Part shown: positions 1,998 to 40,660 of the stretch, piece after piece
Position numbering within the stretch: position 1 is the first letter of the stretch
Layout of the letters: every line of letters starts with the position of its first letter
NCBI RefSeq assembly: GCF_000003815.2
Contig: NC_049986.1
Location: forward strand, 23,326,876-23,390,875
From: Branchiostoma floridae
Lineage: Eukaryota > Chordata > Leptocardii > Amphioxiformes > Branchiostomatidae
Direction: 5' to 3'
DNA: 64,000 nt
Position numbers and translations under genes: made by a program
The notes under the pieces: model-generated
The model's database searches: none
Told to the model about the DNA's origin: nothing
The model's input: only the letters and a program-made list of their open reading frames with translations

Positions 1998-2152
1998 CTT
2001 TACGCTTCGAATGTTGCCTGGTTGATTTCGCGTTCAAATCAGTTGGAATTTTCCTTAGATCAGAGAAAAAAAATACTATCTCCGAAGAGCGCAAAATGGC
2101 GGACGGGCCAAAGCATCTAGGGGCAAAGGTCAAGCATAATACCTGATTATCC
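1998..2152 (-). promoter_or_regulatory. Zinc-finger promoter/first-exon module 1 (leftward, orphan)
   Basis: Minus-strand copy of the module found upstream of every zinc-finger gene here. In transcription order: GGATAATCAGGT (2152-2141), CTTGACCTTTGCCC (2134-2121), TCCGCCATTTTG (2103-2092), then a first exon ending with a GTAAG donor at 1997-1993. The sequence around the donor (AACATTCGAAGCGTA) closely matches module 3 at about 6030. A G-rich tract follows at about 1884-1896. The matching zinc-finger exon must be to the left of the window or lost. Confidence 0.75.
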
Positions 2153-2519
2153 AGCTAGGTCACAGGTCACAGTATACTGTACCGCAACAGAGGTACTGGT
2201 ATCCTTATCCATTCAAAAGTCGAAAGTAATTGCCTATAAGCTATCGTTTTCCCGGAAGGTTTGGTATGGAGTGTATTTTCACCAGCAGAATACTTAACAC
2301 CCCCTCCCCCAAGGACGTGCAGTGTTTCGCTCGAGCCGTATACCCATTTATATAATAGTGGATGCATTTCTATAATTTTACACATGTATGTTTTCTCATA
2401 TGTTTGGCCAATGGAAAGCGGCCTGTGCGCTGATTTGAGCATCTATATGAATATACAAGATTCAAACAAACAAAGCTGTAATCAGACATGAGGTCTATCA
2501 GCGACACAATGCGCGATCT

Positions 2520-2677
2520 GGGTAATCAGGTTTGTCAACTTTGACCTCTTGCTTGACCTGTGATTACGACTCTCCGCCATTTTGAGCAGTGAAACCGGTG
2601 CTATATTTCCTTCCAATCCGAGGTGAATTTCTAACTTACTACGCTCCCAATCAGCTATCAACGGCTCCTATAGACAG
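2520..2677 (+). promoter_or_regulatory. Zinc-finger promoter/first-exon module 2
   Basis: Contains GGGTAATCAGGT (2520-2531), AACTTTGACCTC followed by a second TGACCT half-site (2537-2558), and CCGCCATTTTG (2574-2584), then about 90 bases of untranslated exon ending CAG|GTAAG with the donor at 2678. It faces away from module 1, with about 370 bases between the two TAATCAGG boxes. It serves the zinc-finger gene at 3626. Confidence 0.8.
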
Positions 2678-2789
2678 GTAAGACCTTTGTGTACCATCAG
2701 AAAATTACTGTATCACGCTACTGCAGCGTGGCGTGGCGGCTACTTCAAGTAATGGGGTGTGGTTCGGGAAAAAAAAAGAAAAAATTATA

Positions 2790-2958
2790 CAGTAGAAGCC
2801 GCTTATTAATTGCACGGCCTATGAATTTCGTGCTATTACCCGGCTGGTGCAATAATGCGAAGTTATCTAGCTGGACTGCACTGATTTGGGATTTGGGGAA
2901 TCCGTGCAGTTAACAGAAGTGTGCGTCAATCTGTTGTGCAATTAACTGGCTTCTACTG
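2790..2958. mobile_element. Tc1/mariner (pogo/Tigger)-like MITE
   Basis: Terminal inverted repeats start CAGTAGAAGCC and continue into TTAATTGCAC at both ends; the left copy follows a TA, while the right TA is no longer intact. It is the same family as 47726-47899 and has no coding capacity. It sits in the first intron of the gene at 3626 and accounts for the extra distance from the donor to the G-tract at about 3001. Confidence 0.75.
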
Positions 2959-3625
2959 GAATTCTGCGGTTTGTTAAAATAATAACGTTATATACATGCA
3001 TGGGGGAGGGGACTTACAAGCTATCACGCTTTTTTAATAGTTGGCAGCCTATATTAGCCCTGAGTATTCCACCTGCTTTCTACCTGCTCTCTCCCTGCCA
3101 ATGCATCATCGTGACATCATCGTGATCGCTCGTATCATATTGGATGAAATGTTGTTTATAGAATCTACTGTATCTGTCTTCCTTTTTTTTTAGATAGTCT
3201 CTTAAAAAAACATCACATTTTTTTCGGACCAGGTAAGATACGTTGGATAAGTTGTTGAGTGGACTGGAAATAAAGTAAATTTTATTATTCAGTGTACATA
3301 CTATCAAGCTGAAAGAAACAGACTATTTCAAACAGCTGCCACAATTTCACTGAACTTTACCCTTTAGGAGATCACCATAAGGCTATTTTTCTAGTACTAA
3401 AGGCACAAAATCCAAACAAACGTGGGACATTTCATTAACCATTGTCTTCAAACAAGAAGTCAAATCCAACAAAAGTATTTATTATATAATATTGATTAGG
3501 CACTAGTGTTATGTATCACACTATCTACTCTTAGTCTTTGAGATTGCACATATTGTAGCAGTATATAATCAAAATTGTAAAGGTAATCTTTTTCTTTCCC
3601 TTATTTTTTCCCATAGGCCCCAGAA

Positions 3626-5215
3626 ATGGACGGGTCAAGCTATGGGTTTTCTGTTGAAGGGACGTCTCCCGCACACCCTGTGAACGAGACGGCAAAAAGA
3701 GAGGACCTGGCAGCAGAAATGGGAAGAAAGAAGGACAAGAGAAAGAAGACACTTGTCGCGAACACAAACATCAAAGCCTCCGCCGCGCCCGACAAGAAGG
3801 CTTCCTCACGTCAGCTTGAAAAGAACCATGCAGGAAAAAAGGACCCGTCAAAAGCACAGGATTCTGTAAAGACGCCCTCCGTATGCGGAGAGTGTGGGTA
3901 CAGGGCGGCTAGATCTCACCTAGTGATACATATGCGGAAACATACTGGCGAGAAACCCTACAAATGTGACCAGTGCGACTATTCTACTGCACGGAAAAGC
4001 AACTTAAACAAACACATGGCTAGACACGCCGGTAATAAACCATACGTATGTGGAGAATGCGGATACAGGACGGATACCAGGTCTCACCTAGCCCAGCATG
4101 AAAGGAAACATACTGAAGAAAAACCTTACAGTTGCGATCAGTGTGACTTTTCTACCAAGTGGAAGCTAAGTCTTAACAACCACATGGTCGTACATACTGG
4201 CGAGAAACCCTACATGTGTAAGGATTGCGGTTTTAGGGCATCTTACCGATCAACCCTTACTAAACATATGAGAACACACACGGGTAAGAAACTATTCAAG
4301 TATGACCTAAGCGACAATTCCAAAGACACGTTTCCCGGGCACACGCAGAAACAAGCAGGTGAAAAACCCTACATGTGTGAAGAGTGCGGATACAGGACGG
4401 CTGTTAGGTCTGACCTAGCCAGGCATAAAGTTAAACATACAGATGAAAAACCTTACAGTTGCGATCAGTGTGACTTTTCTACAAAGTGGGAGCTAAGTCT
4501 TAACAACCACATGGTCGTACATACTGGCGAGAAACCCTACATGTGTAAGGATTGCGGTTTTAGGGCATCTTACAGATCAACCCTTACTAAACATATGAGA
4601 ACACACACGGGTAAGAAACCGTTCAAGTATGACCTAAGCGACGATTCCAAAGACACTTTTGCCGGGCACACGCAGAAACAAGCAGGTGAAAAACCCTACA
4701 TGTGTGGAGAGTGCGGATACAGGACGGCTGTTAGGTCTGACCTAGCCAGGCATAAAGTTAAACATACAGATGAAAAACCTTACAGTTGCGATCAGTGTGA
4801 CTTTTCCACCAAGTGGAAGCTGAGTCTTCATAATCACATGGTGATGCACACTGGAGATAAGCCCTACATGTGTGGGGAGTGCGGGTATAGGACAGCTTAC
4901 CGGTCAACCTTAACTAAACATATGGCAAGACATACAGGTGTGAAACCCTTCAAATGTGACCAGTGCGACTATTCTGCTGCACTGAAAGGCAGTTTAGCAC
5001 AACACAAGGATAGACATGTGAGAAAACATACAGGTGAGAAACGCCACAAGTGTGACCAGTGCGACTATTCTACCGCACGGAAATCTGATTTGGAACGACA
5101 CATGGCTAATCACGCTGGTAAAAAGCCGTACATGTGTGGGAAGTGCGGATACAGGGCAGCTCAGAAAACTCAACTATCCAGACATATGAGAAACCATAAA
5201 AGTGAGAAATCGTAG
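3626..5215 (+). CDS. C2H2 zinc-finger protein, 529 aa (array gene 1)
   Basis: Single zinc-finger exon. The start follows an acceptor ending CCCCAG|AA ATGG at 3623, the same layout as the sister genes. A basic, Lys-rich N-terminus (residues 1-85) precedes about 14 complete C2H2 fingers joined by TGEKPY-type linkers. Fingers are mainly of two alternating kinds, CDQCDY/FS and CGECGYRT, with the aromatic two residues after Cys2. Two finger units starting FKYDLSD have lost both cysteines. Both lie in an internal tandem duplication of 327 bases, so the damage happened before the duplication. Likely a nuclear DNA-binding protein; the target is unknown. Polyadenylation signal AATAAA at about 5433. 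The 5' exon is 2590s-2677. Confidence 0.9.
   Translation: MDGSSYGFSVEGTSPAHPVNETAKREDLAAEMGRKKDKRKKTLVANTNIKASAAPDKKASSRQLEKNHAGKKDPSKAQDSVKTPSVCGECGYRAARSHLVIHMRKHTGEKPYKCDQCDYSTARKSNLNKHMARHAGNKPYVCGECGYRTDTRSHLAQHERKHTEEKPYSCDQCDFSTKWKLSLNNHMVVHTGEKPYMCKDCGFRASYRSTLTKHMRTHTGKKLFKYDLSDNSKDTFPGHTQKQAGEKPYMCEECGYRTAVRSDLARHKVKHTDEKPYSCDQCDFSTKWELSLNNHMVVHTGEKPYMCKDCGFRASYRSTLTKHMRTHTGKKPFKYDLSDDSKDTFAGHTQKQAGEKPYMCGECGYRTAVRSDLARHKVKHTDEKPYSCDQCDFSTKWKLSLHNHMVMHTGDKPYMCGECGYRTAYRSTLTKHMARHTGVKPFKCDQCDYSAALKGSLAQHKDRHVRKHTGEKRHKCDQCDYSTARKSDLERHMANHAGKKPYMCGKCGYRAAQKTQLSRHMRNHKSEKS
4125..4850 (+). repeat. 327-base internal tandem duplication in finger array
   Basis: Blocks starting near 4125, 4452 and 4779 repeat with a constant offset of 327 bases (for example CACATGGTCG at 4181 and 4508; CTGTTAGGTC at 4401 and 4728). 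The unit is 109 codons: three good fingers plus one degenerate Cys-less finger. The third copy is partial and has a normal finger instead of the degenerate one. Confidence 0.9.
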
Positions 5216-5883: not shown

Positions 5884-6044
5884 GGGTAATCAGGTTTTCA
5901 ACGTTTAACCTTTGCCCCTTCAAGCTTTGTCCGCCATTTTGAATTGCACGAGGCCAAGGAGGAGACCTATTTTTGTCGATACTTTGAGACAAATTTCAAC
6001 AGACTTTAGCACTACAACAACCAGGCAACATTCCAAGCGTATAG
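5884..6044 (+). promoter_or_regulatory. Zinc-finger promoter/first-exon module 3
   Basis: GGGTAATCAGGT (5884-5895), TTTAACCTTTGCCC (5904-5917), TCCGCCATTTTG (5930-5941), then first exon ending ATAG|GTAAG with the donor at 6045. A run of ten or more G follows at about 6131, as in the sister introns. It serves the gene at 6805. Confidence 0.8.
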
Positions 6045-6320: not shown

Positions 6321-6804
6321 GGTCAGAGGATACAAAACCCGTCTGTACATTGTAATGTGCAAATCGAAACAATGGTCTAGACAAGGACTGTTTACCAATT
6401 CGGGGCTTTGCCCTTTGACATCACCTACAATTCCTGTCACCGCACATACATGCGTTTCGACCCCTGTGAAAATGCTTATCATATGATTATTTCGACTGGA
6501 CTAGTCCATTTTTTGTTGGGGAGGGGGAAGTTGCTGTATGGTTTCTCACATCTGCGGGGTCGGGGGTCAGGAGGTTGATAGGAAGAGGTTTACAGATAGA
6601 TCAAATTATTGCAACAATGAAATAGCATATCACACGAAGTCAGGATGACGATGGTTGTACTGATCTGATTCTCTAATGTTACCATAGGCTGGGCCAAGCA
6701 GTGGAAGAAACGTTGAAGAAGAGGACATCGACACTAGCAGCAGAGAGAACAAGACAGGCACGAGAGGGCAACAAGACAAGGAAAAAGAAAATCTGCTCAA
6801 GGAA

Positions 6805-7878
6805 ATGAGTGGTGTCGACCTTCCACTGACTGACAAGGCACGTTTATCACAGATACAAACTCATCCAGGACAGATGGAAGGGCAAAGTACACAGGATGCT
6901 TTAGATGTTGCTTTGGCTGCATCCCACAGATGCTACCACTGTAAATACAGTGCGCCTTACAAGTCTCAGCTGACCAGGCATATGCGGAAACATACGGGTG
7001 AGAAACCCTTCAAGTGCGACCAGTGTGACTATTCTGCTGCACTGAAAGGCAGTTTAATCAACCATATGAGACAGCATACAGGTGAGAGACCCTACAAATG
7101 TGACCAGTGCGACTATTCTGCTGCACAGAAAGGCAATCTAGATAACCATATGAGAAAACATACAGGCGAGAAGCCATTCAAGTGTGGCCAGTGTGACTAT
7201 TCGGCTGCACATCAAAGCAGTTTAGACTACCATATTATGAGCAAGCATACAGGTGAGAGACCCTACAAATGTAACCAGTGTGACTTTTCTACTGCACAAA
7301 AAGGCAATCTAGATCTCCATATGAGAAAACATACAGGTGAGAGACCCTACAAATGTGACCAGTGTGACTATTCGGCTGCACAGAAAGGACATCTAGATCA
7401 CCATATGAGAAAGCATACAGGCGAGAAACCATTCAAGTGTGACCAGTGTGACTATTCGGCTGCACAGAAATGCAATTTAGACCAGCACATGAGAAAACAT
7501 ACAGGTGAGAAACCCTACAAATGTGACCTGTGTGACTATTCGGCTGCAAAGAAAGGCAGTCTAGATCATCATATTATGAGAAAGCATACAGGTGAGAGAC
7601 CCTACAAATGTGAGCAGTGTGACTATTCTACTGTACGGAAATCTGATGTGGACCACCACATGGCTAAGCACACTGGCGAAAAACCCTACATGTGTGGTGA
7701 ATGCGGGTACAGGACAGAATACAGGCGCTGCCTGACCCGACATATGAGAGCACATACAGGGGAAAATCCCTACAAATGCCATTTGTGCAGCTTTTCTGCT
7801 AAGCAAAAGAATGCTCTGACCATACACATGGCTCGACACACTGATGAAAAGTCCTACATGTGTGGGGACCCTATATGA
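6805..7878 (+). CDS. C2H2 zinc-finger protein, 357 aa (array gene 2), C-terminally truncated
   Basis: Eleven complete fingers after a short N-terminus. Nine of the first fingers are one type (CDQCDYSAAQKG-like), unlike the alternating pattern in sister genes, so this copy grew by single-finger amplification. The frame stops inside a twelfth finger (YMCGDPI, stop at 7876-7878), and decayed finger sequence continues to about 8110. The exon begins after the acceptor TTACCATAG at 6687. The frame is open from there to the ATG at 6805, so an upstream start in the first exon or a lost ATG cannot be excluded. I chose the ATG at 6805 because it is the only one in frame. Promoter is module 3. Confidence 0.85.
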   Translation: MSGVDLPLTDKARLSQIQTHPGQMEGQSTQDALDVALAASHRCYHCKYSAPYKSQLTRHMRKHTGEKPFKCDQCDYSAALKGSLINHMRQHTGERPYKCDQCDYSAAQKGNLDNHMRKHTGEKPFKCGQCDYSAAHQSSLDYHIMSKHTGERPYKCNQCDFSTAQKGNLDLHMRKHTGERPYKCDQCDYSAAQKGHLDHHMRKHTGEKPFKCDQCDYSAAQKCNLDQHMRKHTGEKPYKCDLCDYSAAKKGSLDHHIMRKHTGERPYKCEQCDYSTVRKSDVDHHMAKHTGEKPYMCGECGYRTEYRRCLTRHMRAHTGENPYKCHLCSFSAKQKNALTIHMARHTDEKSYMCGDPI

Positions 7879-9170: not shown

Positions 9171-9321
9171 TTAGTGGGATAATTGGGTAAATAAACTTTG
9201 ACCTTTCACCACCGGAAGTGCTGGCCCGAGATACTCCGCCATTTTCGCTATCGGCTGAAAGACAGACTACTTTCCGGACGATTCTCCGCCTTGTTGACTC
9301 CGAAATAGGAGGGGTGCATAG
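9171..9321 (+). promoter_or_regulatory. Zinc-finger promoter/first-exon module 4
   Basis: A diverged first box (GGATAATTGGGT, 9177-9188), AACTTTGACCTTT (9194-9206), CCGCCATTTTCG (9236-9247), then exon ending CATAG|GTAAG with the donor at 9322. GGGGGAGGGGGGC follows at about 9437. It serves the gene at 10998. Confidence 0.75.
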
Positions 9322-10740: not shown

Positions 10741-10997
10741 GTTCTTTGAACTCTTTTAAAAAATCGGGACTCATTTAACGTCCTGATCAAAGCTAGATAC
10801 AAACATTTTCGTCTCCTGAGAGAAGCAATCAAAGTCATGCAGTGAACCGCCATTTCCAAGGGCACAGTATCAGGGAATGTCAGAGGATTCGAACCCTGGA
10901 CCTCGGTTTCCTCTACTATGACACCACACGATGCCACATGAAGTATGGTAGTCTTTTTGATTTGTCAAGTTTTTGACAATTCAATGTTGTTTCAGAA

Positions 10998-12920
10998 ATG
11001 GATGAGACAAGCAACGAGAGTCCTGTGGGCGAACTGCCAACTGAACACCCTGGGGACGAGAGAAGCAGCGAGAGTCCTGTGGGCGAACTGTCAACTGTAC
11101 ACCCTGGGGACGAGAGAAGCAGCGAGATTCCTGTGGGCGAACTGCGAACTGAACACCCTGGGGACGAGAGAAGCAGCGAAATTCCTGTGGATGAACTACC
11201 AACTGTACACCCTGGGGACGAGAGAAGCAGCGAGATTCCTGTGGACGAACTGCCGACTGTACACCCTGGGGACAAGACAAGCAGCGAGATTCCTGTGGAC
11301 GAACCTCCAACTGGGCATCATTGGAACGAGACAGACATTAGCGAGAAATTAGACATGGGAAGGCAGCAGGACGAGGAAGAGGGTATTTTATATTGGGGAA
11401 AGAGCGAAGTAACATATGGCGATCCTCCCGCCACACAGGATCGAACAGAGCAGACGGAAGGGATTGCTGTGAAAGGTAGTGTGGAGAAAAACTTTACGAA
11501 TACGGAGCTTGACTTCAGAACAGCTTCAAAGAGTGATATATTCGGACACGCCTTGGCCAAACCCCATGCAGGTGAGAAACGTTATACATGTGACCAGTGC
11601 GACTATTCTGCTGCAAGGAAAGACTCTTTAGACCGCCACATTGCCAAACATACTGGAGAAAAACCCTACATATGTGGAGAGTGCGGGCACAGAACAGCTC
11701 ACAGGTCCGACTTAACCAAACACATGAGAATACATTCGGGTGATAAACCCTACAAATGTGACAAGTGCGACTATTCGTCGGTGCGAAAATGTGACTTGGA
11801 CAAGCACAAGTCTAAACACAGCAGAGAAACAGGGCAGACGGACAGGCTTGCGGTGAAAAGTAATGCGGAGAAACGCTTGATCTGTATAGAGTGTGACTAT
11901 AGAACAACTTCAAAGAGAGATTTGGTCAGACACGCCAGAACTCATACAGGGGAGAAACCTTATAAGTGTGACCAGTGCGACTTTTCTGCGGCAAGGAAAG
12001 ACCATTTAAACCGCCACATGTTCCAACACAGTGGAGTAAAACCCTACATGTGTGGAGATTGTGATTATAGAACAGTACGCAAGTCTGACTTGGCCACACA
12101 CATGGCAATACATACAGGTGAGAAACCCTACAAGTGTGGCAAGTGCGACTATTCGTCTGTACGAAAAAATGCCTTGAACAAACATCTTTCTATACACAGC
12201 AGAGAAGCAGAGCACTCGGGCAGGCTTGTAAAACGTACTAAGGAGAAACGCTTCGCATGTGAAAAGTGCGACTTCAAGGCATCTGCAAAGAAAGACTTAT
12301 CCAGGCACACCAGAACACACACAGGTGAGAAACCCCATAAGTGTGACCAGTGCGACTATTCTGCTGCACATGAATTTTATCTTAAGTTGCACATGGCTAA
12401 GCACTCCGGAGAGAAGCCCTACCTTTGCGACGAGTGCGAATTTAGGACGGCCCACCGGTCTGCTTTAGCCAAACATAAGAGAATAAAGCATACAGACGAG
12501 AAACCCTATAAGTGCGACCAATGTAATTATACAGCTCCAAGGAAAAGCTACTTGGACCAACACAAGCTGCGACACACAGGTGAGAAACCTCACTTGTGTT
12601 GGGAGTGCGGATACAGGACCTCCAACAGGTCTGGTCTGAACAAGCACATGAGAACGCACACGGGTGAAAAACCCTATAAGTGTGACCAGTGCAGCTATTG
12701 TGCTGCACAGAAAGGCAAGTTAGACCGTCACAAGCTCACGCATACTGGCGAGAAGCCCTACATGTGTGAAGAGTGTGGGTTCCGGACGGCTCATAGGGCT
12801 ACGCTGACCATTCATAAGAGAAAGCATACGGGCGAGAAACCTTACAAATGTGACCAATGTGACTATTCTACCCGAGCAAAAAATAACCTTAACAAACACA
12901 TGGTCCGACATACGTCTTAA
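10998..12920 (+). CDS. C2H2 zinc-finger protein, 640 aa (array gene 3)
   Basis: The start follows an acceptor (TTTCAG|AA ATGG). The N-terminus is acidic and made of six 18-residue repeats (GDERSSEIPVxELxTxHP; 11001-11324), followed by 15 complete fingers plus one Cys-less remnant (residues about 160-185). Fingers are grouped by two longer spacers of similar sequence (SREx... to EKR), implying duplication of a multi-finger block. Linkers are otherwise canonical TGEKPY. Ends cleanly after finger 15. Probable nuclear DNA-binding factor; target unknown. Polyadenylation signal AATAAA at about 13355. One of the best-preserved genes of the + half of the array. Confidence 0.92.
   Translation: MDETSNESPVGELPTEHPGDERSSESPVGELSTVHPGDERSSEIPVGELRTEHPGDERSSEIPVDELPTVHPGDERSSEIPVDELPTVHPGDKTSSEIPVDEPPTGHHWNETDISEKLDMGRQQDEEEGILYWGKSEVTYGDPPATQDRTEQTEGIAVKGSVEKNFTNTELDFRTASKSDIFGHALAKPHAGEKRYTCDQCDYSAARKDSLDRHIAKHTGEKPYICGECGHRTAHRSDLTKHMRIHSGDKPYKCDKCDYSSVRKCDLDKHKSKHSRETGQTDRLAVKSNAEKRLICIECDYRTTSKRDLVRHARTHTGEKPYKCDQCDFSAARKDHLNRHMFQHSGVKPYMCGDCDYRTVRKSDLATHMAIHTGEKPYKCGKCDYSSVRKNALNKHLSIHSREAEHSGRLVKRTKEKRFACEKCDFKASAKKDLSRHTRTHTGEKPHKCDQCDYSAAHEFYLKLHMAKHSGEKPYLCDECEFRTAHRSALAKHKRIKHTDEKPYKCDQCNYTAPRKSYLDQHKLRHTGEKPHLCWECGYRTSNRSGLNKHMRTHTGEKPYKCDQCSYCAAQKGKLDRHKLTHTGEKPYMCEECGFRTAHRATLTIHKRKHTGEKPYKCDQCDYSTRAKNNLNKHMVRHTS
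11001..11324 (+). repeat. Coding minisatellite, 54 bp x 6
   Basis: Six units of exactly 54 bases from 11001, each beginning GAC/T-GAG-A and ending CACCCTGGG, giving an 18-residue acidic Ser/Pro/Glu repeat. The unit length is a multiple of three, so copy-number change keeps the frame. Confidence 0.93.
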
Positions 12921-14420: not shown

Positions 14421-14578
14421 GGGTAATCAGGTATATTAACTTTGACCTTTGACCCCATCATACCAGAAGGGTCAGTTTACCTCTCCGCCATTTTGGTTTC
14501 TCGGAGCACATATAGTTGCTTGCAGTTTTTCGCAGCAGTACATCGTCTCAGCAATATAGCAGGACCATAAACTGGCAG
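14421..14578 (+). promoter_or_regulatory. Zinc-finger promoter/first-exon module 5
   Basis: GGGTAATCAGGT (14421-14432), AACTTTGACCTTTGACCCC (14438-14456; contains TGACCTTTGACCC, a DR1-type nuclear-receptor element), CCGCCATTTTGG (14485-14496), first exon ending GGCAG|GTAAG with the donor at 14579. A G-rich tract follows at about 14698-14709. It serves the gene at 15088. Confidence 0.85.
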
Positions 14579-15087
14579 GTAAGACCCTTTTATATCTGTC
14601 TGTTCAGTCTTGTCTTGGCGTGATAATTCTTGAGTAGTCTAGTCAGGTTTGTGACTGGAATATCATCGTTAGTGTTGTGTCTTTTAGTACTACCGTAGGG
14701 GAGGGGGGCTTAAACCAGCGGTGGACGGTTTGGTACAAATCAAAGCATTCAACAATACTTAGCATGGTCCTCATGTTATGGTGAGGAGAATATTCTTGGC
14801 ATATCGTAAGGCACGGTCAGTTAATTAAGTTTGTGTATCATATGTGTGTGCGTGTGCATTTATGTGCAACTATTATTGAATTGCAAATTAAGTTCACATT
14901 GTTTTCAACAGTTCAGTCACTTAAAGTGAAGATGGACATTCAGTGGTTCATGTGCCCCATTGCACTTTGTGATAGTGGCCTGATAATGACGTGGATCAGA
15001 GTTGTCGTTCTTTTTTATTACAGTCAAGTTCAGTTCAGTCATCCATCTGGTGACACGGTTGTAATTGCTGTTTTTCATGTCTCAGAA

Positions 15088-16419
15088 ATGGAAGAAGCAA
15101 GTTGTGGCGCAGGGCATCCTGGGAACGATGAAGAAATGGTAGAACCAAGCTGTGATGTCTGGGATGATCCGGAAGTGGACACAGAAAGGCAGCAGGACGA
15201 GGGACAGGAAATCCTGTGGGAGGAAACGCAAAGTACGACTTCCAACCAGTGTGAGGAGAGAGGAGCCACACCACAGACACATGTACAGCCCCATACAGGC
15301 CAGATGGTAGCCTTAGTTGACACTGGAGCAGTATTTAGGGAGCATAATTACTCTAAAACGGCTGGCGTCCAGGCTAGGCAGGCGGATGGACATGATGCAA
15401 CAGATACCTCTGGTACAGCCCCTGTAGAGGAGGGTTCTTTACACAAGACGAAGAAGCCGCACAATAGTGGATTTTCTTCGCTGGTTAAAACAGGCTTAAA
15501 TAAACACAAGACTAAACGCACAAAACGCTTCGTATGTGGAGAGTGCGGATACAGGACGGTAAGTATGTCTTACCTTAACAAGCATATCAAGAAGCATCCA
15601 GCTAAGAAACCCTATAAGTGTAAAAAGTGTGACTTTTCTTCTGCACGGAAAAGGTGTTTAGCCACACACATGTTACGGCACACTGGTGAAAAACCCTTCA
15701 TGTGTGGGGAGTGCGGACACAGGACGGTTACTAAATCTGACCTAGCCAAACATATGAGAACACATACAGGTGAGAAACCTCACAAATGTGACCAGTGCGA
15801 CTTTGCCTCCGCATGTAAGGACCGTCTAAGGAGGCACATGTTTAAACATGGTGGTGAGAAACCCTTTCAGTGTGGAGAGTGCGGGTACAGGGCGATTGAT
15901 AGGTTTGATCTATCCATGCATATGAAAAGACATACAGATGGGAAATCCTTTAAATGTGATCAGTGCGACTTTTCTTCTGCGTGGAAAAGGAGTTTAGCCC
16001 GACACATGTTGGTACACACTGAAAATAAACCCTACATGTGTGGAGAGTGCGAGTACAAGACGACTGTGAAAAATTACCTTACCAAGCATATGAAGAAACA
16101 TACAGGTGAGAAACCCTTCAATTGTGATCAGTGCGACTACAGGACGATTACCAAAGATAACCTTACCAAACATATCAGAAAACATACGGGTGAAAAACCC
16201 TATAAGTGTGGAGAGTGTGAGTATCGGACGGCTGATAGGTCTCAACTATCCAAGCATATGAGAACACATACAGGTGAAAAACCCTATAAATGTGACCAGT
16301 GCGACTTTTCTGCTGCACAGAAAGGCAGTTTAGTCCTACACATGTCACGACCACGCTCGTACCCAGCGCCGCGAAGAAGCCATAGGTTTAGATTGTGGGC
16401 TCAACCAATACACAAATAA
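15088..16419 (+). CDS. C2H2 zinc-finger gene 4, interrupted by transposon (5' part)
   Basis: The start at 15088 follows CTCAG|AA ATGG, the array's standard acceptor/start. The upstream open frame from 14833 is intron. The N-terminus (MEEASCGAGHPGNDEEM...DTERQQDEGQEI) is acidic and shared with the gene at 20006. Nine complete fingers follow, and the tenth is cut after 'LVLHMSR' at 16351 by an inserted element. The last about 22 codons and stop are transposon sequence, which also supplies an AATAAA at about 16414. The remainder of the finger array resumes in the correct finger position at 16956. As it stands the allele codes for a protein with half the fingers (443 aa). Confidence 0.88.
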   Translation: MEEASCGAGHPGNDEEMVEPSCDVWDDPEVDTERQQDEGQEILWEETQSTTSNQCEERGATPQTHVQPHTGQMVALVDTGAVFREHNYSKTAGVQARQADGHDATDTSGTAPVEEGSLHKTKKPHNSGFSSLVKTGLNKHKTKRTKRFVCGECGYRTVSMSYLNKHIKKHPAKKPYKCKKCDFSSARKRCLATHMLRHTGEKPFMCGECGHRTVTKSDLAKHMRTHTGEKPHKCDQCDFASACKDRLRRHMFKHGGEKPFQCGECGYRAIDRFDLSMHMKRHTDGKSFKCDQCDFSSAWKRSLARHMLVHTENKPYMCGECEYKTTVKNYLTKHMKKHTGEKPFNCDQCDYRTITKDNLTKHIRKHTGEKPYKCGECEYRTADRSQLSKHMRTHTGEKPYKCDQCDFSAAQKGSLVLHMSRPRSYPAPRRSHRFRLWAQPIHK

Positions 16420-16947
16420 AACTATATGGAATCCACATCTGTCATTTTGTTTTGCTTTATGTTTGTCTCAATTACCTTAGCAAATCGTAAGTTGTGTGAC
16501 CATTCTGTGCGTCTCTATAGACTATACAACGTGAGACTGTACCCCAGTTAGCTAGCGTTTTCTACAGTTACCGAGGCGAAAACAAGACGAAAGTTTACTA
16601 TTTCGGGGGTAAAATGTTGCCACAATGGTGATACGTTATATCAAAGGGAACTTTAAAATGTACCTAATTTGGTGGCGCTGCGAGAGTGTTAGATTACCCC
16701 TCTAGATTGCCGAGAGGGGAGTTATGTCACGGAAGGGAGTTTGCTACGGTCAGCGCGTTTGGCCTTCTCCGCGGACGCGCCAGTAGCTCTCCTTCCCAGG
16801 TTTATATCGCTTCCCCCAGCATGCTTTGCGCGGAAAAGTTACACTCGTACCCAGGACACAAAGACTTGGTAAACACGAAAAGGCGCCCCGCTATGCTCAG
16901 TGGGCCCGGGGCGTGGATCTAATTAAAGGACGCTGTGGAGGAGCGTG
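16352..16947. mobile_element. 596-bp MITE (Mutator-like) inside zinc-finger coding exon
   Basis: Flanked by a perfect 9-base duplication, TGTCACGAC, at 16343-16351 and 16948-16956. Ends are inverted: CACGCTCGTACCCAGCG on the left and CGCTGTGGAGGAGCGTG on the right (first seven bases perfect). A 9-base target duplication suits Mutator-like elements. No transposase frame is visible, so it is non-autonomous. The flanking finger sequence is continuous across it. Confidence 0.88.
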
Positions 16948-19745: not shown

Positions 19746-19759
19746 GTATATATATGTGC

Positions 19760-19796: not shown

Positions 19797-20005
19797 GATA
19801 TGTGTGTGTGTGTGTGTGTGTATGTTCAGCTTTGTGTATATGTGTGTGCGTGTATGTTCGGTTACTGTTGAAAGCGAAAAACTAGGCCCAATGCCATAAT
19901 ATAATGTCCCATTGTACTCAATGATAGTTACTTAACACAGATGTATATATGGGCGTAATTATCAAAACTGCCGCTGATTTTACTTCTTATTTTTGCTACT
20001 CAGAA

Positions 20006-27134: not shown

Positions 27135-27749
27135 TTCTTCTGTTGGATTTTTCTCGATTCCTGCAGGAATCAGCCTAGAGAAATGCTCGTCCTTTCCTGT
27201 GGATGAAGGGAAATAAAAGAAAGTTGAAATAAATTGTAGACAATTCCCCGGTATAAGTTATATCATGTTATTTGTTAGCCTGGGTGCCATCCTCCCTGGT
27301 TAGCTTGCAAAAAGATTGAGCCACGGTTACTATGGAGAATCGTAACCAGGCTAATATCAACTGGGATAATATGAAATTGTGTTATCGCGTTGAACTATAG
27401 TGTGGATACCTCTGATTCAAACATTGCCGACTGTTATAGCCGAACCAAACGTTTTGCCTCTTGGTAAAATATGTGAATATCAAATAGCTTTGCTGCCGAG
27501 TTTGTTACGATTACAAATAGTACATATAGCATCTTCAACCCCATACCCACCCTAGTTTGGGGAATGGCCATAACTACAAGCTATTAGTATTACTAGATTT
27601 GTTGTCGATATGCCCCCCTCCCCCAAGTATACTAGTACCCTACCTATGATTTTTCTCAAATCGTAACGTAACATCGTTTTCTCAAACTTCGCACCCCTGA
27701 GCTATTGAAGCGTATTACAGCAAGTGAAGGAGGTAAACAAAGGCCTTAC

Positions 27750-27913
27750 CTGTCTATCGACAGCTTTTAAGATTGGTATAGACAAGAAGTAAGCTGTAAA
27801 TCGCCTCAGACCAAAGACTGACACGTGGACGCCACCAGCACGACTCAAAATGGCGGACAGGGGTCAACAAATCTGGCACAGGGCAAAGGTCAGAGGTGAC
27901 AAACCTGATGACC
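27750..27913 (-). promoter_or_regulatory. Zinc-finger promoter/first-exon module 7
   Basis: In transcription order: GGTCATCAGGT (27913-27903), TGACCTTTGCCC (27892-27881), GTCCGCCATTTTG (27858-27846), then exon ending GACAG|GTAAGG with the donor at 27749. G-rich tract at 27606-27620 in the intron. Immediately upstream, GAGGTGTCGCT is shared with modules 8 and 9. Confidence 0.82.
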
Positions 27914-29149: not shown

Positions 29150-30373
29150 TTAAGTGTGTTTGGTCATGTGATTGCTTAAAGAACTTTTCCTTGCGACAGA
29201 ATAGTCGCACAGGTCACATTTGTAGGTTTTTGTATGTGTTCTTATGTGCTTTGACAGGTTAGACCTATCAGCCGTCCTGAGGCCGCACTCCCCGCAAATA
29301 TATGGTTTTTCTCCAGTGTGTTTAGCCATGTGTCGGTCTAAACTACCCTTCTGCACAGCAGAATAGTCGCACTGGTCACATTTGTAGGGCCTTTCCCCTG
29401 TATGTGTTCTCAAATGTTTTGACAGGCAGGACCTATCAGCCGTCCTGTACCCACACTCCCCGCACATGTAGCGTTTCTCACCAGTGTGCTTAGCCATGTG
29501 CGTGCCTAAACTCTTTTTCCATGGCGAAGAAAAGTCACACTGATCACATTTGTAGGGCTTTTCGCCAGTATGCACTTTCATATGTTGAGATAGGCGAGAT
29601 TTTGTAGCTGTCCTGTACCCACACTTCTCACACATGTAAGACTTTTCTCCATTGTGTTTATCAGCCATGTGTCGGTCCACAGAAGATTTCCATGCAGCGG
29701 AATAGTCACACTCATCACATTTGTAGGGTTTCTCATCTGTATGTCTCCTCATATGTCGGGATAGTTTAGACCTTTGAGCAGTCGTGTATCCGCACTCATC
29801 ACACGTGTAGCTATAGGGTTTTTCACTAGTGTGTATAGCCTTGTGTTGTTTTAAACTGCCTTTCTGTGCAGCCGAATAGTCACACCTATCACATTTGTAG
29901 GGTTTCTCACCTGTATGCGTTCTCATATGTGTCAACAGGTAGAACTGGTGAGCAGTTCTGTATCCGCACTCCCTACATATATAAGGTTTCTCACCGGTAT
30001 GCGTTCTCATATGTTCTGTTAAGTTAGACATTATATTTGTCCTATACCCGCACTCCCCACACATGTACGGTTTTTCATGGTGTTTTGCAATGTGGTGGTC
30101 TAACTGCCATTTCCACTTCGCAGAATAGTCACACTGGTCACACTTGTTGGGTTTTCGATCGGTGTGTCTACTGGTATGCACGGCCAGGCTGGACATGTTT
30201 TCAGCAGCATACCCACATTGCTTGCACGTGTGGGATCCACCCGTAGCGTCTTCCTGATGCATGTCAGTCAGCTCTGTCTGGGGAGCGGTTTTCTTATCGG
30301 GTAGGGATTCTACAGCAAGAGTTTCCTCGTATGGCATTCCTTGGTTGTGGAATTTTTCCAAGTCTGCTGTCAT
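29150..30373 (-). CDS. C2H2 zinc-finger protein, about 407 aa (array gene 7)
   Basis: Thirteen complete fingers with canonical linkers and a clean end (HMTKHT-stop). The N-terminal region (KNPVGDM... CxxTLAVES... KKTAPQTEL) and finger 2 KWKWQLDHHIAK place it with the other minus genes. The ATG at 30373 is the first in the exon. The sister genes' earlier ATGGAC is absent because the bases next to the acceptor (CCCAG, about 30430) are deleted or replaced. No inactivating lesion in the fingers. Probably the best-preserved of the minus genes. Exon 1 is module 8. Confidence 0.9.
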   Translation of the reverse strand: MTADLEKFHNQGMPYEETLAVESLPDKKTAPQTELTDMHQEDATGGSHTCKQCGYAAENMSSLAVHTSRHTDRKPNKCDQCDYSAKWKWQLDHHIAKHHEKPYMCGECGYRTNIMSNLTEHMRTHTGEKPYICRECGYRTAHQFYLLTHMRTHTGEKPYKCDRCDYSAAQKGSLKQHKAIHTSEKPYSYTCDECGYTTAQRSKLSRHMRRHTDEKPYKCDECDYSAAWKSSVDRHMADKHNGEKSYMCEKCGYRTATKSRLSQHMKVHTGEKPYKCDQCDFSSPWKKSLGTHMAKHTGEKRYMCGECGYRTADRSCLSKHLRTHTGERPYKCDQCDYSAVQKGSLDRHMAKHTGEKPYICGECGLRTADRSNLSKHIRTHTKTYKCDLCDYSVARKSSLSNHMTKHT

Positions 30374-31017
30374 GTCTCCTACTGGATTTTTCTTGATCCC
30401 GGGCGACAATCCAGCGAATAGAAATACTGGGAGTAATTTATAGTTGAAAGTTTCTGAAATGAAATGACATTGTGTTGTGAAAGTTATATATAACGGCCTT
30501 GGTTATATCAAGTTAGCCTGGGTGCCATCCTCCATGGTAAGCAAGCAAAACGATCGATGGTTACTATGGAGAATGATACCCAGGCTGACATCAAGTGGGA
30601 CAACACGACATTGTGTTATCACGTTGAACAATAGTGTGGACACCTCTGATTCCATTCGAATATAGTCGACTGTTAGCCTAATCAAAGACGTATATACCAT
30701 CCTTGGCCGAAATGAGTTTTTACCTCTTTCAGTCTTTGTAAAATATGTGAATATTGATGAGCTGTGCTATCGAGTTTGTTATCGATTAAAAAAAAGTATA
30801 AAAATCCAAATCCAGATTTTGCGTGAAATCTAGCACCTTACTTTTGGGAATGGCCATAGCGTACAATCTATTAGATAGATTTGCTGTCGATATGCCCCCC
30901 TCCCCCAAGTATACCCCAACTATACTATAGTATGACCTTTCTCGAATCGCACACAAGTTGAAGTAGCAGCCATTGAAGCGTGATACAGCCAGTGGAGGTG
31001 ATAAACAAAGGCCTTAC

Positions 31018-31185
31018 CTGTCTACCAACACTTTTTAAGGTTTACATAGAGTCGAAGTAGGCTGAAAATCGCCTCAGACTGCATAGTAACGACCCCACTC
31101 GCATTGATTGCACGGCTCAAATAGCTGACAGGGTCAACTAATCTAGTGCAGGGCAAAGGTCAAAGTGGACAATCGTGATGACCCA
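31018..31185 (-). promoter_or_regulatory. Zinc-finger promoter/first-exon module 8 (YY1 box eroded)
   Basis: GGTCATCACGAT (about 31183-31172), TTTGACCTTTGCCC (31164-31151), then CTGTCAGCTATTTG at about 31131-31118 where sisters have GTCCGCCATTTTG, so the YY1 core is mutated. Donor GTAAG at 31017. G-rich tract at about 30894-30907. Confidence 0.75.
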
Positions 31186-32849: not shown

Positions 32850-33587
32850 TTAAAGCATATTTCCGTGCAGAAGAATAGTCATTTTTTCAATGTGCGTAAC
32901 CATATGCTGGTCTAAACTACCTTTCTGTGCAGCAGAATAGTCGCACTGGTCACATTTGTAGGGTTTCTCACCTGTATGTCTTCGCATATGTACGGTTAGT
33001 GTATACCTATCAGCCGTTCTGAACCCACACTCTCCGCACATGTAGGGTTTTTCTCCAGCGTGTTTAGCCATGACGTGTCGGTCTAAAGTGCCTTTCTGTG
33101 CAGCAGAATAGTCACACTGGTCACACTTGTAGGGTTTCTCGCGCTTAGCACCGATGTGTGTTTGCATATGTTCAGTTAACTTAGGCATTTTACCTGTCCT
33201 GTACCCGCACTCCCCGCACATGTACGGTTTTTCATGGTGTTTTGCAATGTGGTGGTCTAACTGCCATTTCCATTTCGCAGAATAGTCACACTGGTCACAC
33301 TTGTTGGGTTTTCGATCGGTATGTCTCCTTGTATGCACATCCAGGCTGGACATGCTATCAGCAATATACCCACATAGACTGCATACGTGCGAACTTTCTT
33401 CTTGATGTTTTTCCACCAGCTCTTCCTGTGAAACGGTTTTCTTGTCGGATGAGGACTCTACAGCAAGAGTTTCCTTGCATGGCATTCCTTGGTTCTCGTT
33501 CTGCCATTTTTCATGTACGGTTGCCATTTTTTCTGCAAAATTTTCCTCGTTTCCTACAGGAATCAGTCCAGAGAAATGCTTGTCCAT
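32850..33587 (-). CDS. C2H2 zinc-finger protein, about 245 aa (array gene 8), truncated
   Basis: The start at 33587 follows CCCAG|AA ATGGAC; the frame upstream of it is intron. The N-terminus and fingers 1-3 are the conserved minus-subfamily version; six fingers are complete. The seventh has lost its Cys-pair segment by deletion (HIEKMTILL), shifting the frame into a stop. Its first intron was enlarged by a 1.2-kb transposon (33687-34900). Exon 1 is module 9, more than 2 kb upstream. Confidence 0.85.
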   Translation of the reverse strand: MDKHFSGLIPVGNEENFAEKMATVHEKWQNENQGMPCKETLAVESSSDKKTVSQEELVEKHQEESSHVCSLCGYIADSMSSLDVHTRRHTDRKPNKCDQCDYSAKWKWQLDHHIAKHHEKPYMCGECGYRTGKMPKLTEHMQTHIGAKREKPYKCDQCDYSAAQKGTLDRHVMAKHAGEKPYMCGECGFRTADRYTLTVHMRRHTGEKPYKCDQCDYSAAQKGSLDQHMVTHIEKMTILLHGNML

Positions 33588-33686
33588 TTCTGGGAATATG
33601 GAAATAGCAGAGATGTGAAGTGAAATGTACATAATTTTCAGGTATAATTTTTAACAAGATAGCCTGGGTACCATCCTCCGTGGTTA

Positions 33687-35656: not shown

Positions 35657-35815
35657 CTGTCTACCGATACCTTTTAAGGTTGATATAGAGTCGAAGCAGG
35701 CTGAAAATCGCCCCAGACCGAAGAGAAACGACGCCACTCGCAGGCCTCAGCAAATGGCGGATAGGGGTCAACAAATCTGGTGCAGGGCAAAGGTCAGAGT
35801 TGACAAACCTGATGA
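35657..35815 (-). promoter_or_regulatory. Zinc-finger promoter/first-exon module 9
   Basis: GGTCATCAGGTTTGTCAAC (about 35815-35797), TGACCTTTGCCC (35795-35784), CCGCCATTTG (35760-35751; one T short of sisters), donor GTAAGG at 35656. G-tract of 14 or more at about 35537-35553. Confidence 0.78.
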
Positions 35816-36032: not shown

Positions 36033-36044
36033 GTGTCGCTACGG

Positions 36045-37391: not shown

Positions 37392-39035
37392 TCATGTACA
37401 ATCGTGTTTGGCCATGTGATTGCCAGTATGCGTTTTGATATGTTGAGATAGGCGATATTTTGTAGCTGCCCTGTACCCGCACTCCTCACACTTGTATGGA
37501 GTTTCTCCACTGTGCATAATCATATGTCGGGCTAAAGTAGATTTTATGGCAGAAGAATATTCACACTTGTCACATTTGTAGGGTTTCTCACCGGTATGTG
37601 TTTTCATGTGTTTTGACAGGCAGGATTTATCAGCCGTCCTGTAGCCGCACTCCTCACACATGTAAGGCTTGGCCCCGGTGTGTTTAGCCATGTGTCTGTC
37701 CAAATGTCCTTTCACTGTATAGGAACAGTCGCACTGGTCACATTTGTAGGGTTTCTCACCTGTATGTGTTCTCATATGTAGGGACAGGGAGAACTTGTGT
37801 GCAGTTTTGAATCCGCACTCCCCACACATGTAGGGTTTTTCACCAGTGTGCCTAACCATATGTTGGTCTAAAGTAGATTTCTGTGCAGCAGAATAGTCGC
37901 ACTGGTCACATTTGTAAGGTTTCTCACCGGTATGTTTTTTCATGTGATTAGTTAAGCCAGACACGTTAGCAGTCCTGTGTCCGCACTTTTCACACATGTA
38001 GAGTTTTTCTCCAGTGTGTTTAGACAATTTGTGTTGGGCTAAAGCATTTTTCCATGCAGAGGAATAGTCACATTGGTCACACTTGTAGGGTTTCTCACCT
38101 GTATGTTTTCTCATGTGGTTGGTTAAGTCAGTCCTGCCAGATGCCCTGTAACTGCATTCTTCACACACGTATTCAACGGCTTGTCTGCCCAAATGTACGG
38201 AGGAACTTTTTTTCAGCGAAGAAACGTCACACTTGTTGGGGTTATCTCCTATGTGGGAAGCCATGTGTCGGTCTAAAGTATCTTTCCTTGCTGCAGAATA
38301 GTCACACTGGTCACATTTGTAGGGTTTATCATCCATGTGCTTGGCCCTGTGTCGGTTCAAATTGTTTTTCTGTGTAGCGGAATAGTCACACTGGTCACAT
38401 TTGTAGGGTCTCTCGCCTGTATGTGTTCTCATGTGTTGGGATAGGGCAGACTTGTGAGCAGTTCTGTAATCGCAATCCCTACACATATAATATTTAGTCC
38501 CTACATTGTGTATATGTGTACTCATATGTAGGTACAGGGAAGACCTGTAAGCTGCTCTATAGCCACAATCCCCACACATGTAAGGTTTAACACCAGTATG
38601 TTTTCTCATATGTACAGTCAAGATACACATTTTACCTGTCCTGTACCCGCACTCCCCACACATGTACGGTTTTCCATGGTGTTTTGCAATGTGGTGGTCT
38701 AACTGCCATTTCCATTTAGCAGAATAGTCACACTGGTCACACTTGTTGGGTTTTCTGTCTGTATGTCTCCTTGTATGCACGACCAGGCTGGGCATGCTAT
38801 CAGCAACATACCCGCACTCCTTGCATATGTGGGATCCATCCATAGTGACTTCCTGATGCCTGTCCACTAGCTCTGCGTGTGGAACGTTTTTCTTGTTGGG
38901 TGAGGTGTCCTCAGCAATTGTTTCCTCACATGATATTTCTTTGCTGTCGTTCTGCCAATTTTCCAAGTCTGTCGCCATGTCTTCTGCTGGATTTTTCTCG
39001 ATCGCAGGAAACAGTCCATCCGAATGATCGTCCAT
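37392..39035 (-). CDS. C2H2 zinc-finger protein, about 547 aa (array gene 9)
   Basis: The ATG at 39035 corresponds to the start of sister gene 8 (MDDHSDGL versus MDKHFSGL). The acceptor just upstream reads TTCTTAAG|A, weaker than the CAG of the sisters. Sixteen complete fingers plus one degenerate unit (NKCDVSSLKKSSSVH). Fingers 1-3 are the conserved subfamily version. The C-terminus jumps from a half linker to HMAKHDCT-stop, indicating an in-frame loss of most of one finger near the end. Otherwise intact. Exon 1 is assigned to module 10, about 1.5 kb upstream. Confidence 0.9.
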   Translation of the reverse strand: MDDHSDGLFPAIEKNPAEDMATDLENWQNDSKEISCEETIAEDTSPNKKNVPHAELVDRHQEVTMDGSHICKECGYVADSMPSLVVHTRRHTDRKPNKCDQCDYSAKWKWQLDHHIAKHHGKPYMCGECGYRTGKMCILTVHMRKHTGVKPYMCGDCGYRAAYRSSLYLHMSTHIHNVGTKYYMCRDCDYRTAHKSALSQHMRTHTGERPYKCDQCDYSATQKNNLNRHRAKHMDDKPYKCDQCDYSAARKDTLDRHMASHIGDNPNKCDVSSLKKSSSVHLGRQAVEYVCEECSYRASGRTDLTNHMRKHTGEKPYKCDQCDYSSAWKNALAQHKLSKHTGEKLYMCEKCGHRTANVSGLTNHMKKHTGEKPYKCDQCDYSAAQKSTLDQHMVRHTGEKPYMCGECGFKTAHKFSLSLHMRTHTGEKPYKCDQCDCSYTVKGHLDRHMAKHTGAKPYMCEECGYRTADKSCLSKHMKTHTGEKPYKCDKCEYSSAIKSTLARHMIMHSGETPYKCEECGYRAATKYRLSQHIKTHTGNHMAKHDCT

Positions 39036-39253
39036 TCTTAAGAACAAGGAGGAAAAATGAATGAGAGTAATATTTTGTTGTTATGTCCTATCGTTATATC
39101 AAGTGAAGCTATGTGACATTGCGTTACCACATTGAACAGTAAGTGGATACCTCTGATTCAAATTTACTCGAAAGGTAGCTGAATCGAGAGTTGCATCTGA
39201 GTTTTACCTCTTGCCGATGTGAATATTGACGAGCATCAACATAAACACATGCT

Positions 39254-39278
39254 TCTATTCTATTCTATTCTATTCTAC
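39254..39278. repeat. (ATTCT)n microsatellite
   Basis: Four to five copies of TTCTA in the first intron of gene 9. Confidence 0.8.
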
Positions 39279-39359
39279 CCAACCATCGATACCACCAATG
39301 ACTATCTATTACATAAACAATAGTTCTATCACTATATGACCATCACTATAAGGTCAATG

Positions 39360-40160
39360 TCAAAGAAAAAAACAACAAGAGTTTGGAGACCTCAGGCCTC
39401 CATGAAATATTCCAATTATGCAAATGACTTGCAAATCTGCATAATTCATGCTTGGTTATGTACACCTTTGAATAACTTACACAGGTATACGTATATATAT
39501 TGATAATCCAATCATTTACTACATGTACTTAGATGAATTAGAACACTTTCACATTATTATGCAAATTAGGGACTTATTTGCATAATTGGTATCTTCCACC
39601 TGCCACAAATTACATATGTTAGTACATGTATTTCAGTACCATAATTAAAAATATTGGATTTTATGGATTTTCCTCATTAAGTATGTAAAGTAAGTCCATA
39701 TTTGCATAGTTTGCACTTCATTATGTACATCTCTGCCAAACATACATATGCTAGATATCATGGAAATTCATCGTTCCTATGTTCCATTATGCTCCTTGGA
39801 AGATTTTAACAAAATTGGCCCTGCAGTTCCAGATCATAGAGCAGCCCAAGACTTTATACCCTCTTCCTTACATTAGCAGCTATCTGCCAGCATACAGATC
39901 AAGACCATAGCATGCTCAGGTCAAAAGATACACAAAATCGAAGATCTGCTGCAGTACCAACGTCACACACCAGGGGGCCTAAAATCGACCTTGACCTATA
40001 TCTTCCAAACACCCACATACAAAACAAATATCATTACAATCCATCCATAGGTTCTAAAGTTATGCTGACCACAAATATCAGGACACACACACAGACAGAC
40101 ACACAGAAAGACACACCAAAAACTATACCTCCATTTTTCATGGAGTCCAGGAGATAATGA
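39360..40160. repeat. Unclassified dispersed-repeat-like block
   Basis: AT-rich block starting near GGAGACCTCAGGCCTCCATG and ending with ACACACACACAGACAGACAC and CATTTTTCATGGAGTCCAGG. The similar words at both ends in opposite sense suggest an inserted element, and it is absent from the sister introns. Confidence 0.4.
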
Positions 40161-40516
40161 TAATCAACGCCGTTGGAACTGTCCATCAGTCATGTTACAT
40201 TTTTGCCAAAATTTACGTTATATCCCTAGCTAGGTGTTGCATATACGTTGGAATTTTTTGATACCATCCTCGAGAAGAAGGCGACGCCTGTAGCCTATAG
40301 CTCCCGATCTTCACACTTGCAGAGTGTATTTCTCGCTCTCCCATAGTTTATCATTATGACTTATCAAGCTTTGTTTTAAACTTGCCAAGTTGGCGTCTGT
40401 ACTACCTCCATCCTGTGGCAATTTCGTTCACCACCCTGACGCTGCTTGCTGTCGTACTACTACCATTATCACCACAGACTTATCAGGGGACGTAAAAAGT
40501 TAACAAGGGCCTTACC

Positions 40517-40660
40517 TGCGGTCTACTTCTGCTGTTAGATCGATAGACAGACTTGCGTTGCTTTTGAAACGGCCACGTCTGGGCCAAGAGAAGAGATCCG
40601 TTCCAAAATAAATGGCTTCCGGTGGTGAAAGGTCAAAGTGTACATTCCTTTCCTGATGAT
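40517..40660 (-). promoter_or_regulatory. Zinc-finger promoter/first-exon module 10 (diverged)
   Basis: GGAATCATCAGGA (about 40664-40652), CACTTTGACCTTTCACC (about 40640-40624), a weak GAAGCCATTTATTTTGG at 40619-40602, then exon ending CGCAG|GTAAGG with the donor at 40516. The AACTTTGACCTTTCACCACCGG wording is closest to module 4 on the other strand. Confidence 0.65.

Follow-up and report, generated by a model that had tools for sequence, protein, structure and literature searches.

The amphioxus Branchiostoma floridae carries, in a 64,000-nucleotide stretch of contig NC_049986.1 (C8:23326876-23390875, hereafter the window), ten copies of a compound element that we call the module, composed of box A (GGGTAATCAGGT-like), box B (TTTGACCTTTGACC, DR1-like), a YY1-type box (CCGCCATTTTG), a short first exon and a GTAAG splice donor. 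Each copy (m1 to m10) precedes, on the same strand, a gene for a protein with an array of C2H2 zinc fingers, and the module quite probably represents the core promoter and untranslated first exon of a single lineage-expanded poly-zinc-finger gene family, operating through the YY1/DR1-type mechanism outlined below. Several animal groups have independently acquired fast-evolving arrays of finger genes, and, to our knowledge, little is known outside vertebrates about the regulation of such arrays during duplication and diversification.

Ten finger genes belong to the window. Modules 2-6 each lead into a plus-strand gene and modules 7-10 each into a minus-strand gene; the gene preceded by module 1 has its fingers just beyond the left edge of the window. 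The pairing of modules with C2H2 arrays is 10:10, each module lying on the strand of its own array, which bears out the proposal of an earlier note on this DNA that a single promoter and first-exon module serves the finger-gene array. The distance from module to first finger is 0.96-2.6 kb across the ten arrays; for comparison, 14% of window positions, with strand counted, have an array start 0.9-2.7 kb downstream, a range picked after the distances had been seen. A finger stretch at 16980, with no module of its own (best score, in mismatches to the three boxes, 9), was counted as a continuation of gene 5, the fingers of which are split over two open reading frames (ORFs; 16207-16980), so that this gene may be broken or may contain a further intron. 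The modules and genes, in window coordinates, are as follows.

1998..2149, minus strand: module 1; box A from 2149, box B from 2133, YY1 box from 2102, exon 1 end 1998
-965 to -485 (locus L001), just left of the window, minus strand: gene 1 finger array, following module 1
2523..2677, plus strand: module 2; box A 2523, box B 2541, YY1 box 2574, exon 1 end 2677
3617..5215, plus strand: gene 2 coding exon; ATG 3626, candidate CAG acceptor end 3623, fingers from 3965
5887..6044, plus strand: module 3; box A 5887, box B 5905, YY1 box 5931, exon 1 end 6044
6688..7878, plus strand: gene 3 finger exon; fingers from 6931
9180..9321, plus strand: module 4; box A 9180 (TAATTGGG), box B 9198 followed by ETS-like CCGGAAG, YY1 box 9236, exon 1 end 9321
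10977..12920, plus strand: gene 4 finger exon; fingers from 11589
14424..14578, plus strand: module 5; box A 14424, box B 14442, YY1 box 14485, exon 1 end 14578; 0 mismatches
14785..17666, plus strand: gene 5; ATG 15088, candidate CAG acceptor end 15085, fingers 15535-16207, second ORF 16980-17568
19209..19385, plus strand: module 6; box A 19209, box B 19232, YY1 box 19274, exon 1 end 19385
19928..21625, plus strand: gene 6 coding exon; ATG 20006, candidate CAG acceptor end 20003, fingers from 20435
25743..27257, minus strand: gene 7 finger exon
27750..27911, minus strand: module 7; box A 27911, box B 27893, YY1 box 27856, exon 1 end 27750
29150..30502, minus strand: gene 8 finger exon
31018..31181, minus strand: module 8, eroded; box A 31181 (TCATCACG), box B 31163 intact, YY1 box 31127 (CAGCTATTTGA), exon 1 end 31018
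32850..33650, minus strand: gene 9 finger exon; 6 motifs, ATG 33587, candidate CAG acceptor end 33590
35657..35815, minus strand: module 9; box A 35815, box B 35797, YY1 box 35760 (minus one T), exon 1 end 35657
37392..39080, minus strand: gene 10 finger exon; closest coding relatives in the window are genes 7-9
40516..40659, minus strand: module 10; box A 40659, box B 40636 with ETS-like CCGGAAG, YY1 box eroded, donor at end; promoter not of the module 7-9 type

Box A is exact (TAATCAGG) in m1, m2, m3, m5 and m6 and takes the forms TCATCAGG in m7, m9 and m10, TAATTGGG in m4 and TCATCACG in m8, and box B was found in all ten modules with 0-2 mismatches to TTGACCTTT. The YY1 box is exact in m1, m2, m3, m5, m6 and m7, has its last base altered in m4, lacks one T in m9, and is clearly eroded in m8 (CAGCTATTTGA) and in m10, where GCCATTT alone remains. 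Even with these eroded copies, the YY1-type site keeps a fairly fixed place relative to exon 1 in 10/10 modules, and the GTAAG donor is likewise present in all ten, 86-114 nucleotides (nt) after the start of the YY1 box. The description of an invariable succession of box A, box B, YY1, exon and donor thus holds for order and place in every copy, but not for the boxes being perfect, with the YY1 site eroded in m8 and m10.

In an alignment of 21 modules, comprising those of the window and eleven from contig C200, the consensus reads ..gGGgTaATCAGGTata,.AacTTTgACCTTtgaCCtcc, CCGCCATTTTG and AGGTAAG (lower case, 50-79%; the donor is derived from 20 modules). The box B consensus, TTTgACCTTtgaCC, contains two direct-repeat half-sites separated by a 1-nt spacer, the second half-site being weaker, and presumably merits the name DR1; DR1 elements bind receptors of the HNF4/COUP-TF/RXR type. 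Boxes A and B are offset by 18 nt in 14 of the 21 modules, and the start of box B precedes that of the YY1 box by 18-58 nt. Box A may resemble NF-Y (CCAATCAG) or SIX/MEF3 (TCAGGTT) sites. No shared TATA box is visible by eye in the aligned core, no TATA scan having been run. In modules 4 and 10, an ETS-like CCGGAAG directly follows box B (9180-9250 and 40604-40659), a form with similar counterparts among some modules at C8 19.5-22.3 Mb and perhaps an older form of the module. Within exon 1 of many C200 copies, a second YY1-like site (GCCRTTT) was noticed by eye ~40-50 nt behind the first. Exon 1 lacks an ATG in 8/10 window modules, and in genes 2, 5, 6 and 9 the ATG opening the finger reading frame is preceded, at 2 nt, by a candidate CAG acceptor.

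The modules stand apart both from chance and from their surroundings. Three-box scores of m1-m10 are 0, 1, 1, 3, 0, 2, 1, 6, 3 and 5, whereas the minimum among 96 null pieces examined as 4-kb stretches (20 drawn from the window's right part, 16 antisense and 60 Markov shuffles) is 7. With the segments aligned, mean pairwise identity is 0.85 in the boxes (box A 0.83, box B 0.88, YY1 0.83; donor 0.77) versus 0.31 elsewhere (upstream 0.26, spacers 0.38, exon 1 0.37, intron 0.31), in agreement with the earlier statement that the boxes kept their order even where the flanks diverged. If the boxes were instead a residue of neutral duplication that had not yet diverged, without selection acting on them, which we regard as quite improbable, their excess should resemble that of neighbouring duplicated sequence, and within two sets it does: many shifted masks match the excess of the boxes in m7/m8/m9 (0.84 versus 0.60) and m4/m10 (0.66 versus 0.43), so that these sets give no separate support, and related copies abound. 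Overall, however, the boxes are better kept than their duplicated surroundings. With one copy per subfamily, identity is 0.90 in the boxes versus 0.31 elsewhere (boxes 0.87-0.96; upstream, spacers, exon 1 and intron 0.27-0.35), and the boxes exceed the rest in m1/m3 (0.97 versus 0.57) and m5/m6 (0.93 versus 0.57). Among 499 shifts of the box mask in the ten-copy set, just a one-base shift equals the boxes, and in the C200 set just a three-base shift does so. The eleven C200 copies in these alignments belong to 12 lying outside the exact-pattern selection, one with an eroded box A (score 6) having been omitted, and give 0.88 in the boxes versus 0.44. For old copies, these comparisons largely refute the neutral-residue explanation.

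The whole assembly (513.4 Mb in 431 contigs) was searched, with each pattern reversed as the control. The three-box pattern has 57 matches versus 0 reversed, the combination of box B and YY1 has 20 versus 0, and the pair of boxes A and B has 170 versus 4. Offsets of the pair were read from the first 100 places listed, 41 of which show the 18-nt offset, including 27 of the 35 at C8 19.5-23.4 Mb. The module is not confined to the finger cluster of the window: arrays at C8 19.5-22.3 Mb, C10, C13 and C200 carry it, as do scattered genes elsewhere.

At least one sense C2H2-type motif lies downstream in 47 of the 57 three-box matches (26/30 first-set loci, 11/12 long C200 loci, 2/3 on C13, one on C17 and 7/9 further C200 loci). 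In 35 of these, the first motif is found 0.7-1.5 kb from where the module starts; antisense fingers downstream amount to one motif (L053). In some of the 47, a single motif or two precede the end of the DNA (e.g., L003, L006, L030, L031, L032 and L058), and in L014 and L027 the fingers begin ~3.4-3.7 kb away and are possibly those of another gene. Three further matches carry evidence of family membership. L057 and L061 have a coding exon behind an acceptor, the DNA ending before any fingers; the L061 leader shares 55% identity with the leader of the C17 finger gene across 141 residues, and the L057 leader gave a weaker match (E 1.6e-5) and resembles m5/m6 leaders by eye. The third, L029, on the minus strand, is the counterpart of module 1 on C10, with segment identities of 77-98%. 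The earlier note had asked whether three-box matches beyond the cluster all precede finger exons; this holds for these 47, with three more showing family evidence, and falls short for seven matches without fingers seen and a near-match on C15. The wide spread over many contigs could recall a piece of a mobile element inserted before finger genes, but this origin seems extremely unlikely, considering that upstream flanks are unalignable between subfamilies (0.27 identity) and that most matches keep their place and strand relative to the finger exon, unlike random insertions.

C200, a smaller contig of 653,616 bp, holds 21 of the 57 matches and is a large finger-gene array. Because arrays are dense there, downstream fingers alone are weak evidence on this contig, and the weight is carried by the narrow distance and by a test that starts from the arrays. 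Of the 24 arrays in the C200 stretches fetched, which were chosen for holding modules and are not a random sample of finger genes, 11 stand behind pattern-chosen modules; among the other 13, 12 have an upstream module (scores 1-6), and the remaining one, close behind another array, has none. The same elements, in the same order and on the same strand, therefore precede most family members, namely 10/10 in the window and 12/13 of the unselected C200 arrays.

The YY1 box alone, with 9,744 matches in the genome versus 1,286 reversed, was rejected as a signature of the family. Rather, the family mark appears to be the combination of A and B, often 18 nt apart, with YY1 and the donor. A survey restricted to loci longer than 2.5 kb and the window with its flanks yielded 44 distinct exact YY1 sites, 41 of which have A and B within 3 mismatches; one lies in a module that has lost box A and has fingers downstream, and two lack A/B, donor and fingers. 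The seventh exact CCGCCATNTTG in the window, at 23227 on the minus strand, has a best upstream A and B with 5 mismatches and neither donor nor downstream fingers. Four of the 20 matches to box B plus YY1 were inspected by hand. The C3 match combines a degenerate box A (2 mismatches, 29 nt) with a donor and with fingers 1.0 kb on; at the C204 match, box A (1 mismatch, 19 nt) is accompanied by a donor, with no fingers in 1.6 kb; and the match on C19 lacks box A, a GGTRAG donor and fingers.

The abundance of the YY1 box raises the question of whether the module is a generic lancelet promoter type, a YY1 class supplemented with A and B, of which finger genes are merely frequent users. In the figure legends of a cap analysis of gene expression (CAGE) study of Branchiostoma lanceolatum, the motif plotted for ubiquitous promoters is YY1, whereas that for embryonic and tissue promoters is the TATA box (PMC6292497). 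The C204 match, A+B matches outside finger arrays and the C15 site considered below also fit such a promoter type. We nevertheless judge it unlikely, because sense finger motifs lie downstream of 47/57 three-box matches and no three-box match was found upstream of a recognised non-finger gene, other genes not having been searched systematically. The module shares with the YY1-class ubiquitous promoters of those legends a YY1 motif around the start site (presumed, in the module), and differs from them in the addition of boxes A and B and in the strong link to one gene family.

The histories of promoters and coding exons are related but not identical. By identity, the promoters form the subfamilies m1/m3, m5/m6 and m7/m8/m9, with m2 nearest to the last, and promoter identity correlates with coding identity (Mantel r 0.62, a value reached in 37 of 9999 permutations). 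The coding part of gene 10 groups with genes 7-9 with strong support (100/99), whereas the promoter tree rejects a group of module 10 with modules 7-9 (p-AU 0.019). In the promoter tree, module 2 joins modules 7-9 (79/87, not a starred branch), and the coding data reject the grouping of gene 2 with genes 7-9 (p-AU 0.0013). The clades were named after the identity tables had been seen, and p values of 0.019 and 0.0446 are therefore weak. Copying of promoter and gene together, as the array was earlier said to have grown, holds on average and is rejected as a rule for every case, since m10 and probably m2 are discordant with their coding exons. Because the promoter groupings of these two disagree with the coding groupings, promoters and finger exons were probably separated at times, whether through intronic recombination or conversion or through unequal loss. 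A stretch from ACTTTGACC to CCGGAAG is shared by m4 and m10, which raised the idea of an m4-like promoter as the source of box B in m10; shared ancestry would fit equally well, because distant C8 modules have a similar ETS-like form.

Pfam analysis of nine proteins (that of gene 1 lies outside the window) returned zinc-finger models and a few marginal others, such as DUF7838 at the cut-off in one protein, with no KRAB, SCAN, BTB or ZAD among the matches. Across 113 fingers, positions -1, 2, 3, 5 and 6 have an entropy of 3.1-3.7 bits, compared with 0.1-2.2 elsewhere in the 12-residue stretch. The genes thus resemble vertebrate KRAB zinc-finger clusters in the tandem arrangement of poly-finger genes and the diversity of DNA-contact residues, and differ from them in the absence of these four accessory domains from the nine window proteins.

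The nearest precedent for the module is provided by the early finger genes of zebrafish. The zebrafish FiNZ (FZNF) 'sharp peak' arrays are likewise large, lineage-specific and poly-finger; their early class reportedly has a distinct, TATA-type promoter architecture in common (PMC10547256), and joint activity in early embryos is reported for 25 genes of this kind, whose 5' ends are conserved (PMC6370886). The zebrafish early class is marked by a TATA box, in contrast to the A, DR1-like and YY1 combination of the lancelet module, and essentially zinc-finger models alone were found here, no FiNZ profile having been used. Olfactory receptor promoters, with O/E and homeodomain sites, similarly join a big family to a common short combination of sites (PMC3247239), but they serve the choice of one gene per cell, unlike the module with its preferred A-B offset, YY1 at the presumed start and fairly constant donor distance. 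Our best reading is that the module is a family-specific core promoter, a variant akin to the shared promoters of olfactory receptor and zebrafish finger-gene arrays. In open-access literature, covered by titles and the starts of abstracts, no paper on a shared promoter of lancelet finger genes was found.

A CCATTTT site can act as a YY1 initiator. The YY1 protein of Branchiostoma belcheri recognises a CGCCATNTT-type motif and is present in abundance at all stages of life (PMC7481187). In the proposed mechanism, a box A factor and a DR1-binding nuclear receptor on box B would assemble together, YY1 at the start site would render the promoter broadly active, and the transcript would be spliced from exon 1 to the finger exon. 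Family members would then share one expression programme while their DNA contacts diversify, with copies spreading mainly by duplication of promoter and gene, occasionally separated, and selection holding the boxes. Initiation at the YY1 box, joint expression and selection for a common programme are what we infer from the arrangement, and the co-regulation of the ten genes that the earlier note had proposed remains an expectation of the same order.

Several observations weigh against the module being such a family-specific core promoter. Modules 8 and 10 have no good YY1 site, yet their finger ORFs are still open. The acceptor-to-ATG gap is 62 nt in gene 7 and 80 nt in gene 8, and genes 1, 3, 4 and 10 gave no candidate acceptor near the ATG under the same rule; a GGTRAG donor was located by pattern behind the YY1 box in 38 of 47 distinct modules, not in every one. 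The m7/m8/m9 and m4/m10 sets, as noted, add nothing separate on conservation. In seven of the 57 three-box matches (L004, L008, L017, L038, L060, L063 and L064), no fingers occur within the DNA seen, with the extension of L004 being about half N, L060 lacking a donor, and L063 and L064 being seen from 0.7 to 1.9 kb. Many A+B matches outside arrays have no known link to finger genes. A site on C15 (L073, C15:15637305-15639005) combines a box A with 1 mismatch at 17 nt with exact box B and YY1, and has neither a donor nor fingers in 1.6 kb; a cysteine-rich ORF of 151 amino acids lies ~0.8 kb past it (Chitin_bind_1, E 0.02, below the cut-off). This site is the best candidate for a three-box-like site outside the finger family, and, together with the seven matches without fingers seen, means that the module may not be exclusive to finger genes. 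Finally, YY1 of B. belcheri repressed its tested target and has no activation domain (PMC7481187), which makes a role of YY1 as an activator at the module uncertain.

A bolder version of the family-specific promoter can be entertained tentatively, although we consider it on balance doubtful. Boxes A and B at the 18-nt offset might constitute the site of one dedicated factor pair commanding most lineage-specific poly-finger genes as a single regulon, such that a KRAB-less arsenal of rapidly diversifying DNA-binding proteins, possibly for genome defence, would be switched on together, with recombination handing the switch between genes.

A few further features of the locus were recorded. Modules 1 and 2 (1998-2677) lie head-to-head in a bidirectional arrangement, with 374 bp between their box A starts; in lancelets, 25% of neighbouring genes reportedly have a bidirectional promoter in common (PMC6292497). 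The three-box strings of these two modules are identical on C8 and C10 (window 1-3600 versus C10:11438870-11442350; L029, L030), with flanks 77-98% alike by segments, which points to either an interchromosomal duplication or an assembly effect. A reverse transcriptase-bearing element (ORF 423-1661, minus strand; window 335-1643) occupies the presumed intron of gene 1, and the C10 copy of this region (L029) is shorter by ~1.3 kb at that place; because the otherwise similar copy lacks this segment, the element may have been inserted after the C8/C10 duplication. The leader of gene 4 (10998-11300) contains short tandem repeats of an HPGDERSSE-like unit ahead of the fingers, and an ORF at 60971-62818 on the minus strand resembles, by eye and with no search made, a TRIM-NHL protein. 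Outside known finger arrays, A+B clusters with offsets of 14, 17 or 18 nt occur at C5:24.76-24.84 Mb and C4:30.33-30.39 Mb.

Taken together, the outline given by the earlier reading of this locus is correct, although the module ranges more widely and its copying is less simple than that reading allowed. The sequences suggest that one common promoter design switches on a large, fast-changing set of DNA-binding proteins. Since the promoter signature is short and defined by sequence, a candidate regulon can be listed from DNA alone, finger genes missed by annotation could be predicted from it, and the switching of arrays as units becomes directly testable, while the discordance between promoter and coding histories suggests that promoters are separable from, or exchangeable among, members of the family.

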